Assembly (NCBI RefSeq): GCF_022818495.1
Contig: NZ_CP089291.1
Coordinates: 3,241,501 to 3,305,500, forward strand
Direction of reading: 5' to 3'
DNA from: Fodinisporobacter ferrooxydans
GTDB taxonomy: Bacteria; Bacillota; Bacilli; Tumebacillales; MYW30-H2
DNA: 64,000 nucleotides
In this document: piece after piece, positions 11,851-32,741 of the stretch
Layout of the letters: every line of letters starts with the position of its first letter
Position numbering within the stretch: the stretch's first letter is position 1
Made by a program: the position numbers and the translations under genes
Notes under the pieces: generated by a model
Databases searched by the model: none
What the model was told of the DNA's origin: nothing
What the model saw: the letters and a program-made list of their open reading frames with translations, nothing else

Positions 11851-12521
11851 ATGCAAACGCAAACTTTAAAGAGGACACCGCTGTTCCCGCTCTATGAGAA
11901 GTACGGTGGGAAAACTATCGACTTCGGCGGATGGGATTTACCAGTACAATTTTCTAGTATTCTGGATGAGCACCAAGCTGTGCGCACAAAGGCCGGACTG
12001 TTTGATGTATCCCATATGGGTGAAGTAGTGATAAAGGGATGGGGGAGCAGATATTGGAAGCCGGTCGGGGACAAGGAGTTGTTCCATGCGGCTTGGGTGC
12101 CCGGGATACGTTGCGGTTTGAAGCAGGTCTTCCATTATACGGGCAAGAATTGAGCAAGGATATCAGTCCCTTGGAAGCGGGAATTGGCTTTGCGGTTAAA
12201 GTGGAAAAGGAAGCCGATTTTATCGGCAAGGAGGCTTTGAGGAAACAGAAGCAGCAGGGAATTCCACGGAAACTTGTCGGCATTGAAATGATTGGCAGAG
12301 GAATCCCTCGCAGCGGGTATCCGGTATTTGCCGAAGGATCTTCTGAACCGATCGGATATATCACTTCCGGAACCCAATCGCCGACCCTCAAGAAAAATTT
12401 GGGTTTGGCACTATTGGATGTCGCATATTCTAAGCTGGCAACACCGTTGGAAGTAGAAATCCGCGGCAAGAGAATTGCGGCATGTACGGTGAAATCGCCT
12501 TTTTATAAAAGAATGAAATAG
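11851..12521 (+). pseudogene. gcvT: gcvT, aminomethyltransferase, internally deleted and frameshifted
   Basis: Two parts of one gene survive in different frames. Residues 1-63 read from ATG 11851 (GGAGGGAG upstream) through [10 protein letters not shown] and [15 protein letters not shown], then leave frame. From about 12039 another frame resumes at a point about two thirds along a normal GcvT ([33 protein letters not shown], then the C-terminal barrel) and continues to the stop at 12521. About 160 codons of the folate-binding core are gone. GcvT moves the aminomethyl carbon from H-protein to tetrahydrofolate, so this copy cannot work. Downstream gcvH is intact. Confidence 0.9.
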
Positions 12522-29233: not shown

Positions 29234-29371
29234 TTCTCTCATAGTAATATAGAATAATACCTGAATCCGTGATTGGGATAGCCATATTAATAGATTTGAA
29301 ACGCATCATGGCGAATACTAAAGAAATAGAGAGTTATTCTTATATTTTGATTTTCACCTGTGAGGCGCGCC

Positions 29372-29545
29372 ATGACCGTTCGGTTTACTTTTGAACAATC
29401 AGATGAATTTCTAACCTCCCATTCGGGGCTTGCTTCCATCGGAGCCCTTCTTTCTCAAACGAATCTTTCTCAAAAAATTTCTCAGTCCAACGCTTCGGCA
29501 ACGTTTGGATCAGGCAGCCGCTACCAACGTGCGAACTCTACCTGA
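29372..29545 (+). pseudogene. remnant of a transposase N-terminus (IS1380-like)
   Basis: MTVRFTFEQSDEFLTSHSGL followed by ASIGALLSQTNLSQ resembles the start of IS1380-type transposases, but the frame soon becomes low-similarity and stops after 57 codons. No further transposase sequence or clear terminal repeats were found. Family assignment is from memory of the N-terminal pattern and is tentative. From 29546 to 29695 I see nothing coding. Confidence 0.4.
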
Positions 29546-29695
29546 AAAATGGACATCGATCCTCGGGAGGAGTCGATCCAGTTACAGTACCAGAAAATCG
29601 TTTATTAAACATATTCCATTAAGACAAGTATAGTTGCAACGATTATTGTTAGAAAAGTGGTACAGTTAAAAGTGTTCCTATCATAAAATCATTAT

Positions 29696-29962
29696 ATGAA
29701 AACGATACAGGAGGAATTTATGGGGGGAGGAACTCAACGGGGAGCTTATATCGGTCATTCCGTTGGCTTAGAAATTGATGAATGGCCCGTATTGGGACCG
29801 AAAGAGGAGGAAATGCTGCCCGAAAACGCAGTTATCACCGTTGAACCGAAATTTATGATTCCAAACGTAGGTGCTGTCATGGTTGAAGATAGCATTTTGA
29901 TTAAAGAAAACGGTTATGAATTACTTGGCTCCGTTGGGCATGAATTATTTGAAATTGGATAG
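29696..29962 (+). pseudogene. C-terminal fragment of an M24 (Xaa-Pro aminopeptidase-like) peptidase
   Basis: 88 codons matching the end of M24 metallopeptidases: the metal-binding histidine segment IGHSVGLEIDEWPVLGP, then the metal glutamates in AVITVEPKFMIPNVGAVMVE followed by DSILIKENGYELLG. A full M24 enzyme has about 360 residues, so the first three quarters are gone. The preceding DNA contains transposase remnants, which suggests loss after insertion. No function is expected. Confidence 0.75.
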
Positions 29963-30095
29963 GTTTGCAGACAAGGCCAGAAGATAGGGGGTTGTCCCAT
30001 AAGCAGAGTCTGCTGAACGATCCTAAGTTACGCCCATTTAACCCAAAATAAGTGTAGCCGCCGCTCCAGGTTCATAAGGGGAATTTGCAAGACAC

Positions 30096-30140
30096 GCATC
30101 GTTTCTGCCGCTGTTGAATCCAGAAACGATGCCTTTTTAT
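30096..30140 (+). terminator. rho-independent terminator
   Basis: GCATCGTTTCTG (30096-30107) and CAGAAACGATGC (30121-30132) are perfect 12-base complements, followed by CTTTTTATT. The stretch 29963-30095 includes GGTTGTCCCATAAG at 29992, similar to ends of some IS elements, but no partner end was found. Confidence 0.8.
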
Positions 30141-30213
30141 TACACGTTTTCATTTCACTATGAATATGCCAAAGCAAAAATTTTTCGGATCAATCCAATT
30201 TTCCGTAGAACCG

Positions 30214-31296
30214 TCAAAAAACAAATTGCGCAAGAAGTCCTGCCACGATTCCTGACATGCATACAGACAAAGCCAGAAATCCAAGAACCCGCCAGGAAAA
30301 TACACGACGAACCATTAGCATCGAAGGCAGGCTGATCACTGGCAGTGTAATCAGCAATGCGGCAGCCGGTCCCATTCCCAGGCCAAACTGCTGCAATGTC
30401 TGGATGATGGGAATTTCTCCAGCTGTCGGGATTACAAATAATGTGCCTGCAATCGCAAATCCGATGATGGCCAAAATGCTATGTGCGGCAACTGGTGATA
30501 GTTCAGGAAACAACCATGCCCGAGTCATCCCTAATATGAGTACAGAAATAAAATAAACAGGCAATACTTGAATGAGCATGATCATTAGTGATCGAAGCCA
30601 GCGAATCCCCCAGAAACCTGCTGTGTCCTGCGGTTCATGGCGAGACAAGATATCCGTCAATTGCTCTGGATCCCGAGCGGGTTGTTCCGTATCGAATCGA
30701 TTTGCCAAATATGCAACCCCAAACACAAGTATGATGCCAAATATCAACCGAATGATTGTAAACTTCCATGAAAGGACAAATGTCATAAAAACCAGAACAG
30801 CCGGATTCAGAGCTGTATTTCCCAGCCAGAATGCAACAGCGGCACCGACAGAACTTGTTTGTTTGCGAAGCCCCACTACCAGTGGTGCAGAACAACACGT
30901 TCACATCATTCCCGGCAATGCGGCCAATCCGGCAATCGCTGTCCCCGAAAATGTCCGATTACCCAAAAGACGGATAATCCAATCTTTTGGAACAATGATC
31001 TGGATGAGCGAACCAAGCACAACTCCAACAACCAGTGCTTGCCAGATTGCCTGATAATAGGAAACGCTGTATTGCCAAGCGGCATTCCACGACGGAGTGG
31101 GTGCAGCATTTGTTTTTCCGGATATAATGGATGCTCCGATGGAATGTTTTTGTATGGCGATAAATGCTTTATGGTAATACGGGTTCCATTTGACCAGGTA
31201 TAATCCGATGACGGCTACCATCAAAAAAACCAATGCCCCAAGCCAACGATACAGCGAACTGTTCGTTTTTGCCCTCATCTTTGCAGATGTATGCAA
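30214..31296 (-). CDS. DUF318-type permease with in-frame UGA at a CxC cysteine position (candidate selenoprotein)
   Basis: One continuous minus-strand frame of 361 codons, about eight membrane segments, of the DUF318/YraQ-ArsP permease family that exports metals or metalloids. Start TTG 31296 has AAGGAGGG six bases upstream. Codon 132 is TGA (30903-30901). It falls in GLAALPGMM-TGA-TCCSAPLVVGL, exactly where this permease subgroup has the first cysteine of its CxC-type motif. Both sides are well conserved with no other lesion. Immediately after the TGA a hairpin CCACT/AGTGG with loop GGT at bases 24-26 (U of UGA counted as 1) resembles a bacterial SECIS. Selenocysteine is therefore plausible; a single nonsense mutation is the alternative. 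The C-terminal half alone would lack its start. Confidence 0.7.
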
Positions 31297-31543
31297 TCGT
31301 ATCCCTCCTTCCTCGGATTTATTATACTATGATTCCATATTGCCTATAACAATTTTTTATGTATTTGATAGTTTTTTTTCATGGAATTTATTTTCGAGTT
31401 CTGATTCAATCTTTCATGATAAGAAAAACAGAAAGTTTGGGCTGACTAGTACCGCCTGCACTTTGTTTGAGGCGGGAGTAACTTAGATCATTGTCGATGA
31501 TGATATTGAAGGAAAATGTCGATTTGTGTAGAATAATAAACTA

Positions 31544-31584
31544 TTAGTAGTAAGTAGAAAGACTTTTAGTAGTAAATAGAAAGA
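31544..31584 (+). repeat. 22-base-period direct repeat upstream of the NlpC/P60 gene
   Basis: TTAGTAGTAAGTAGAAAGA (31544-31562) recurs as TTAGTAGTAAATAGAAAGA (31566-31584), one mismatch, two helical turns apart. It stands 24 bases before the hydrolase ATG and could bind a regulator dimer. The rest of 31297-31607 holds no gene. Confidence 0.5.
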
Positions 31585-31607
31585 TGTAATCGATTAAGGA
31601 GAACGGG

Positions 31608-32741
31608 ATGAAGTTACGTCGATTTATAAGCAGCAGTTTCATAATAGGTTGTACATTGTTTTCAACATCTGTGCATGCCGATACGATTGACCAATTGCAA
31701 AATTCACTAAATAATGCCAATCAACAGGTACAGGATGGCGAACAAAAGCAGAGCCAATTGCAATCACAAATCAACGATGTTCAGCAATCGATCCATCAAG
31801 TCAATCAACAAATGAGTATAAATAATCAGAAACTTGACAGTTTGACCAGCCGCATGAACAAGGTCAATCAAGAAATGAAAGACAATGTAAGTAAACTTCA
31901 TGAATTGCAAACCATCTTCGATCAGCAGTTGAAAGTGATGTACGAAAACGGGACGGTGGATTATTTGTCCGTTTTGCTCAATTCCACGAGCTTTAGCGAT
32001 TTTCTTTCACGTTTTGATGCACTTCGGTTAATCGCCAATCATAACCAAGACGTAATGAACCAGATCAAATCTTTAAAACTCACTCTTGCAGACCAAAAGA
32101 AACAAGTCGCAAATGATATGCAAACAATCAAGCAAAAGCAACAAGAGTTAGCTGTGTTGCAACAAACCAACGAAACATTGCAGAAACAAAAACAAACGCA
32201 GTTGGTATCTGTGCAAAGCACAATTGATTCCGCTAAAAAGAATGCAAATTATTTACAAGAACAAATTGCGTTTGCGAAACGGGAAGCAAAAATGAGCATA
32301 CAGCAACCGATCACGGAAACATATCCTGCCGGTGGTTCGGCTCTTGCGTCTAGAGGAAACAGCCTGCTTTCCGGTGTATCTGCAAATCAAATCGTTTCCA
32401 TTGCGGGACAGTATACGGGAGTTCCGTATGCATGGGGTGGAACCACTCCGAGCGGTTTTGATTGTTCAGGTTATACTCAATACGTTTTCAGTCAAGCGGG
32501 TGTTTCTTTAAATCGAACATCCCAAGGGCAATTTTCTCAAGGAATGAGCGTGTCGCGAAGCGAATTGAAACCTGGTGATTTGGTTTTCTTTTCTACATAC
32601 GGTCCCGGAGCGACACATGTCGGGATTTATATAGGGGCAGGATTGTTTATTGACGCGGAGGATAGCGGTGTGCGCGTCAGCAGTTTATCGAATACATATT
32701 GGGGACCGAGATATATTGGAGCGAGAAGAATCGTTCAATAA
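31608..32741 (+). CDS. secreted NlpC/P60 peptidoglycan endopeptidase with coiled coil (CwlO-like)
   Basis: 377 residues. A signal peptide ends near VHADTIDQL. Residues about 25-210 form a long heptad-rich coiled coil (QDGEQKQSQLQSQINDVQQS and onwards). A short linker leads to a C-terminal NlpC/P60 domain with catalytic cysteine in GGTTPSGFDCSGYTQYVF and histidine in GATHVGIYIGAG. CwlO-type enzymes cut the D-Glu to diamino-acid bond in wall peptides during growth and are often activated by FtsEX through the coiled coil. Start ATG 31608 follows AAGGAGAACGGG. It stands alone with its own terminator. Confidence 0.9.
   Translation: MKLRRFISSSFIIGCTLFSTSVHADTIDQLQNSLNNANQQVQDGEQKQSQLQSQINDVQQSIHQVNQQMSINNQKLDSLTSRMNKVNQEMKDNVSKLHELQTIFDQQLKVMYENGTVDYLSVLLNSTSFSDFLSRFDALRLIANHNQDVMNQIKSLKLTLADQKKQVANDMQTIKQKQQELAVLQQTNETLQKQKQTQLVSVQSTIDSAKKNANYLQEQIAFAKREAKMSIQQPITETYPAGGSALASRGNSLLSGVSANQIVSIAGQYTGVPYAWGGTTPSGFDCSGYTQYVFSQAGVSLNRTSQGQFSQGMSVSRSELKPGDLVFFSTYGPGATHVGIYIGAGLFIDAEDSGVRVSSLSNTYWGPRYIGARRIVQ

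Follow-up and report, generated by a model that had tools for sequence, protein, structure and literature searches.

Organization of the locus

The window, i.e., the whole stretch of 64,000 nucleotides analysed, carries on its minus strand the gene of a predicted membrane permease with an in-frame UGA and a SECIS-like hairpin shortly after it (Table 1). As claimed in the original prediction, which did not specify the strand, the gene is a single frame of 361 codons, stop included, and TGA at codon 132 is its sole internal stop. With selenocysteine (Sec, U) at this codon the context reads PGMM-U-TCC; the frame itself is terminated by a second TGA (30216-30214). In a scan of the entire window, 12 TGA codons, the permease one among them, were found to have stop-free stretches of 60 or more codons on either side, and the 228 codons following the permease TGA form the longest of the 12 downstream stretches, the next one having 156 codons. 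An Rfam scan of positions 29500-31700 gave nothing up to E 1, promoter and terminator scans yielded signals no more than in shuffled sequence, and a PHROGs search produced no match.

Table 1. Features of the permease locus; coordinates refer to the window.
Feature	Coordinates	Strand	Remarks
Permease gene (YraQ-type, ArsP_1)	30214..31296	-	360 residues if UGA 132 encodes Sec; TTG start, TGA stop
Proposed selenocysteine codon 132 (in-frame UGA)	30901..30903	-	Among 99 distinct homologues, 95 have Cys and 4 have TGA here
SECIS-like hairpin GC-A-CCACU-GGU-AGUGG-G-GC	30870..30888	-	Five continuous pairs; two further pairs possible past an A/G mismatch
GGU apical loop	30878..30880	-	Bases 24-26, counting the U of UGA as 1
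Shine-Dalgarno-like AAGGAGG	31304..31310	-	Seven bases 5' of the TTG start (31296), by inspection
Cys134-Cys135 (TGT TGT), invariant partners of residue 132, motif U/C-T-C-C	30892..30897	-	

About 250 bases past the permease gene, on its 3' side, there is a decayed stretch (29370-29962), which, judging by eye, comprises a start resembling that of a transposase and a C-terminal piece of an M24-type peptidase (88 codons, 29696-29962). Elsewhere in the window, a 160-codon ORF (12039-12521) preceding gcvP-like genes resembles, again by eye, the glycine cleavage T protein in its C-terminal part only; the N-terminal part was not seen among window ORFs of at least 150 codons.

Family assignment

The permease scores 126.7 bits with the Pfam family ArsP_1 (PF03773), the gathering cut-off being 32.3. 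The nearest NCBIfam models are both distant, namely, the equivalog of the efflux transporter SaoE (NF040736), for which the permease has 55 of the 325 bits needed, and that of the SO_0444 Cu/Zn efflux family (NF033936), with 45.9 of 300 bits; SaoE is hence a distant homologue, and the permease lies far below its cut-off. Proteins from Escherichia, Klebsiella, and Enterobacter match the permease at 44-46% identity, and one of those from Klebsiella is annotated as yraQ, on which annotation our use of the name rests; yraQ is presumably also the name of the homologous gene of E. coli. The E. coli homologue (approximately 46% identity, with 94-95% of the query aligned) has PGMMCTCC as read from the DNA, and the Enterobacter one, similarly read, has PGMMCSCC; E. 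coli YraQ accordingly has cysteine at the position where the window protein is predicted to have Sec. Judging from these comparisons, the window protein is a YraQ-type permease of the ArsP_1 family. We know of no function assigned to YraQ.

A Sec-containing form of the SO_0444 family (WP_014809615.1, motif UxC) is related in sequence to the window protein, and NF033936 matches all 45 members of our alignment; the two proteins nevertheless differ in the motif, UxC vs. UTCC, and in the score of the window protein, far below the NF033936 cut-off. ArsP, the methylarsenite efflux permease, shares the Pfam family ArsP_1 with the window protein. Inspection by eye of the window ORFs, of at least 70 codons near the permease and at least 150 codons elsewhere, revealed no arsenic gene.

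Exchange of Cys and TGA at codon 132

The site of codon 132 is occupied by Cys in 95 and by TGA in four of 99 distinct homologues (of 102 loci read, three that duplicate contigs already counted were excluded, and the partial homologues of G377 and G405, having no internal stop, were left out). The conserved cysteine assigned earlier to the site PGMM-TGA-TCC is thus confirmed, and the alignment of homologues, proposed at the same time as a check for Cys/Sec exchange, does reveal the exchange, with TGA in three orthologues besides the window gene. The four TGA genes come from the window genome (G000), from G350 and G400, which represent two species of one genus, and from G142, a member of another family of the class, whose permease is 55% identical to the window protein. 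None of the four genes has a further internal stop.

The named-genome sample (80 of 497 loci kept) is biased against TGA, one of the six seed peptides being PGMMCTCC. A less biased search with the whole protein in 200 relatives yielded close homologues in 11 genomes, of which two have TGA; the three same-order relatives that have a close homologue, which are the nearest genomes compared, all carry Cys at the site. In the maximum likelihood tree of the 99 rows, constructed with the site masked, the starred branches require a minimum of two Cys/TGA changes: G142 joins two Cys proteins (L021, L022), and the remaining three TGA genes cluster together with mixed support (98/34).

These data bear on the simplest alternative, a broken gene or a sequencing error, with the TGA acting as a stop in a decaying permease. 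The decayed stretch beyond the 3' end would fit such a scenario, which we nonetheless regard as extremely unlikely, given that TGA is found at the same codon in four genomes with at least two changes on the tree, that the four genes lack any other stop, that the codons after the TGA evolve under purifying selection (dS 0.099 and dN 0.012 for G350 vs. G400), and that the window genome possesses the complete selenium machinery described below. The recurrence of TGA, the changes forced on the tree, and the dS and dN values after the TGA mean that a broken gene does not explain the observations.

The TGA permeases of G350 and G400 (L145, L146) cluster with the window gene, apart from the Cys permeases of their own family, and their acquisition by horizontal transfer is suggested.

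A pattern search in 398 genomes of the class produced matches in five genomes, and the reversed control pattern, in one; the same pattern in 398 genomes of the phylum matched the window genome only. The matches in G224 and G348 share CCCGCTATGATGTGATTCTGCTGC and were taken as chance ones, no ArsP-like protein being seen by eye among the frames listed for the G224 locus (L133). A match in G065 with two internal TGA codons was dismissed, as both of them precede, by eye, the likely start of an ordinary permease. The permease of G181 (C1:288884-289905) is split into two matches in different open frames of 81 and 314 codons, a possible frameshift.

Selenocysteine machinery

A search for selA, selB, selC, and selD, suggested along with the original prediction, found all four in the window genome. 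SelA scores 599 bits with TIGR00474; SelB has 387.5 bits, including its neighbours in frame (cut-off 242); tRNA-Sec has 60.5 bits in Rfam (gathering score 47) and the anticodon TCA according to ARAGORN; and selD is located directly behind selA. The window genome was the only one searched for SelB and tRNA-Sec. The alpha subunit of its formate dehydrogenase (fdhA) has an in-frame TGA as well, in RTUHAPS.

The selD gene of the window genome (L001:2642-3697) is itself Sec-coded, with TGA in AGUGCKIGP, and the same selD TGA occurs in G142, G008, and G004, in the last of these with a hairpin loop of another kind. In G142 (L184:344-5201), selU, selD, and selA lie within 5 kb, and an apparently unrelated gene on the opposite strand separates selD from selA.

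SelA is present in 20 of the 24 genomes with a close permease homologue, that is, in the window genome, in seven out of 10 relatives, and in 12 out of 13 members of the G350 family (SelA of G403, found in two contig pieces, was counted, and a partial 44.9-bit match in G118 was not). The four genomes outside this count are G118, G147, and G095, the latter two having the permease and no SelA match, and G400, which is 65% complete and has fdhA with TGA. In four further genomes, lacking a close homologue, no full-length SelA was found, G224 having a partial match of 36.4 bits.

The UGA could also separate two proteins, with a stop at codon 132 and a restart downstream, or be read through as Trp or Cys instead of Sec. 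A downstream ORF of 220 codons with a GTG start (30876-30214) would provide the second protein; the cut, however, falls exactly at an invariant cysteine, and the genomes concerned show signs of Sec use, namely, SelA in G000, G142, and G350, and the TGA-containing fdhA in G400. Moreover, the terminator of the permease gene being TGA too, general read-through is not in use. Both variants are thus very unlikely.

Hairpin downstream of the UGA

The RNA after the UGA can form CCACU-GGU-AGUGG with the loop at bases 24-26, and to this extent the hairpin described in the original prediction stands. Its proposed extension, UUGUU/AACAA, exists as letters only: it is part of the minimum-energy fold neither of the 64-base nor of the 44-base segment, and G350 and G400 lack the AACAA side. 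The energy of the 64-base fold is unremarkable (z -0.20), and the 44-base minimum-energy fold pairs the GGU instead of looping it. For comparison, the other two Sec-coded genes of the window genome have a six-pair stem with the GGC loop at bases 21-23 (selD) and a seven-pair stem with the GUU loop at bases 23-25 (fdhA). The permease genes of G350 and G400 form a continuous stem of eight pairs, and their loop matches that of the window gene in sequence and position.

A strict rule, requiring at least five pairs that close a three-base loop at bases 20-26 with G as its first base, is satisfied by three out of four TGA genes and none of the 95 Cys genes (Fisher p 2.6e-5). This value is post hoc, the hairpins of selD and fdhA having been seen before the rule was chosen; the selD of G004 fails the rule, and related sequences are not independent. 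Under a looser rule, combined with a pair score of at least 13, the counts are three out of four and nine out of 95, respectively. When codons are replaced by random synonymous ones, the p-values for the strict rule are 0.026 for the window gene, 0.003 and 0.004 for G350 and G400, and 0.32 for G142; across the codon-null tests, the values range from 0.026 to 0.029 for the window gene and are 0.32 and 0.17 for G142. Taken alone, the hairpin of the window gene is only modestly unusual.

The hairpin codons of the window gene are identical to those of G350 in six out of eight cases, compared to 62 out of 191 elsewhere (p 0.02), and to those of G400 in seven out of nine, compared to 61 out of 188 (p 0.009). 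There is no significant excess relative to G142 (p 0.41) or to four Cys relatives (p from 0.24 to 1). The TGA gene of G142 has no such hairpin, only a weaker stem with a five-base loop; since the selD gene of G142 can also form a stem with a five-base loop, the SelB protein of this genome may read another hairpin shape.

From the site, its equivalence to cysteine, the recurrence of TGA, and the presence of the decoding machinery, all of them read from sequence, we infer decoding and a role for the residue: UGA 132 is very probably decoded as Sec, making the permease a selenoprotein. At this codon, SelB carrying Sec-tRNA(Sec) would be recruited by the downstream hairpin, so that Sec is inserted and termination avoided. 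The product would be a YraQ-type membrane permease of 360 residues; without Sec-tRNA, only an N-terminal piece of 131 residues would be made.

Predicted structure and the CxC site

The AlphaFold2 model, built from 45 sequences, has the mean pLDDT of 89.6 and pTM of 0.90. In this model, Sec corresponds to construct residue 123 and is placed in a three-residue break before the predicted helix 124-136, following helical stretches 107-116 and 118-120. The construct columns C123, C125, and C126, which correspond to residue 132 and to the two cysteines at 134 and 135, do not vary among the 45 rows, where Sec was entered as Cys. In distant superfamily members, the first Cys of the CxC motif aligns with residue 132 in 19 out of 19 cases, the motif spanning U132-T-C134; none of the six scanned members of these 19 relatives belongs to the SO_0444 or SaoE equivalogs. 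The UxC of the Sec-containing SO_0444 protein is, by this alignment, probably the same site as U132. Hence, Sec132-Thr-Cys134-Cys135 would lie at the superfamily CxC site, at a helix break of the model, where the selenol and the thiols could bind a soft substrate crossing the membrane.

In a sequence search of PDB, the matches were metal-binding domains of copper ATPases at E 0.015 and weaker, taken to reflect a shared short motif. Foldseek gave no match to the model under E 0.001. In a second fold comparison, sodium-sulfate, dicarboxylate, and phosphate transporters matched with Z values as high as 11.0 (278 residues, rmsd 5.5), and ArsB with Z 8.1; for helical models, such values can reflect only a common arrangement, and they were not used as proof.

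Selenium genes in the neighbourhood of Cys homologues

After the permease itself, the commonest neighbour clusters at the 80 named loci are SelU, or 2-selenouridine synthase (29 loci), SelD (19 loci), and an ABC ATPase (17 loci), the identities of SelU and SelD being confirmed on two examples each with NCBIfam. A direct search of the same loci, with flanks of up to 4 kb, shorter at contig ends, found both SelD and SelU at 23 loci, SelU alone at eight, and neither at 49; thus 31 out of 80 loci are linked to these genes. Chance would give approximately 0.2% per locus, assuming one selD-selU place per 5 Mb genome and ignoring kinship. The linked loci span two phyla, with the Bacillota on one side and Burkholderiales on the other, and are distributed among families as follows: Bacillaceae, 13 out of 30; Paenibacillaceae, 12 out of 24; Fictibacillaceae, one out of one; Burkholderiaceae, five out of five; and others, none out of 20. 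The selenium genes are mostly divergent from the permease in Bacilli and co-directional upstream in Burkholderiales; at L071, L076, and L090 they are downstream. In G118, selD and selU also adjoin the permease.

The window contains no match to SelA, SelD, or SelU, and none was found near the TGA permeases of G142, G350, and G400. SelD and SelU are likewise missing from 17 out of 18 other fetched neighbourhoods and, within the flanks seen, from the entire group of 13 to which the window gene belongs in the tree. The 16 neighbour clusters inspected by eye include none that is arsenic-like; one, with six loci, looked like an iron-siderophore ABC permease.

Possible substrate and relation to known selenoproteins

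The protein was originally described as a metal or metalloid permease. This substrate label amounts to a guess from the family, and SelU and SelD as neighbours of the Cys homologues point to selenium. Given the repeated linkage of these relatives to selD and selU, we put the chance that a selenium species, and not a metal or an arsenical, is transported at about even.

It is also quite possible that the selenoprotein exports soft metals or organoarsenicals, like other ArsP_1 proteins, and that the linkage to selD and selU comes from co-inheritance or from the protection of selenium metabolism against metals. The common Pfam family and the identity of the nearest NCBIfam models, SaoE and the SO_0444 Cu/Zn efflux family, are consistent with a metal exporter, but the scores stay far from both equivalog cut-offs. 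Similarly, the window gene itself has no selenium neighbour, while among the 80 loci SelU and SelD are the commonest ones, and arsenic-like clusters were absent from those inspected. Published data on relatives, in the portions of the texts available, also conform to metal or organoarsenical export: ArsP exports trivalent organoarsenicals (PMC12607644), and a gene of the SO_0444 family rises under Cd and Cu stress (PMC10092412).

If the permease exports excess selenium, decoding of the UGA would yield the pump only when selenium is plentiful. One could then speculate, with considerable doubt, that YraQ-type proteins form a dedicated selenium transporter family, whose Sec-UGA form would tie its own synthesis to the selenium supply as a feedback switch.

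A 2026 review covering 119 families and subfamilies (PMC13188914), in its available part, already has an entry for a Sec form (UxC) of the SO_0444 Cu/Zn efflux family, annotated as such in GenBank. The original remark, to which the permease family was not known as an established selenoprotein, accordingly holds for the YraQ-type Sec form, which is absent from the table of that review, but not for the sister SO_0444 family. Relative to the available parts of these sources, the YraQ-type Sec form and the presence of selD and/or selU beside its Cys homologues are new, in a superfamily that already had one listed Sec member. The titles and abstract openings searched name no selenium link for this family, and a term search of PMC12013277 gave no hit, an earlier report by Haft being possible. 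The YraQ-type branch is hence added to the transporters predicted to use Sec. Two reviews, in the parts available (PMC13188914, PMC9312934), state that a selenium transport system that is specific or has a high affinity is yet to be identified. A family combining a Sec form, linkage to selD and selU, and a Cys member in E. coli makes the question of selenium transport directly testable in a standard laboratory strain.

Another membrane protein associated with SelD, as the YraQ-type family is, is YedE, proposed to be involved in selenium transport (Lin et al., 2015, PMC5322559, available portion); the main text of that paper contains none of the words permease, ArsP, and COG0701. A Sec-containing YeeE/YedE form (GUxSG) is included in the table of the review, as far as available (PMC13188914). 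Despite this parallel, YedE/YeeE proteins belong to a different Pfam family (PF04143) than the window permease. On a plasmid of Ligilactobacillus salivarius (L210:1-6059), the permease, here with PTMMCTCC, adjoins genes for YeeE/YedE, a TusA-family protein, and a rhodanese-like protein that is not SelU, as well as prdA.
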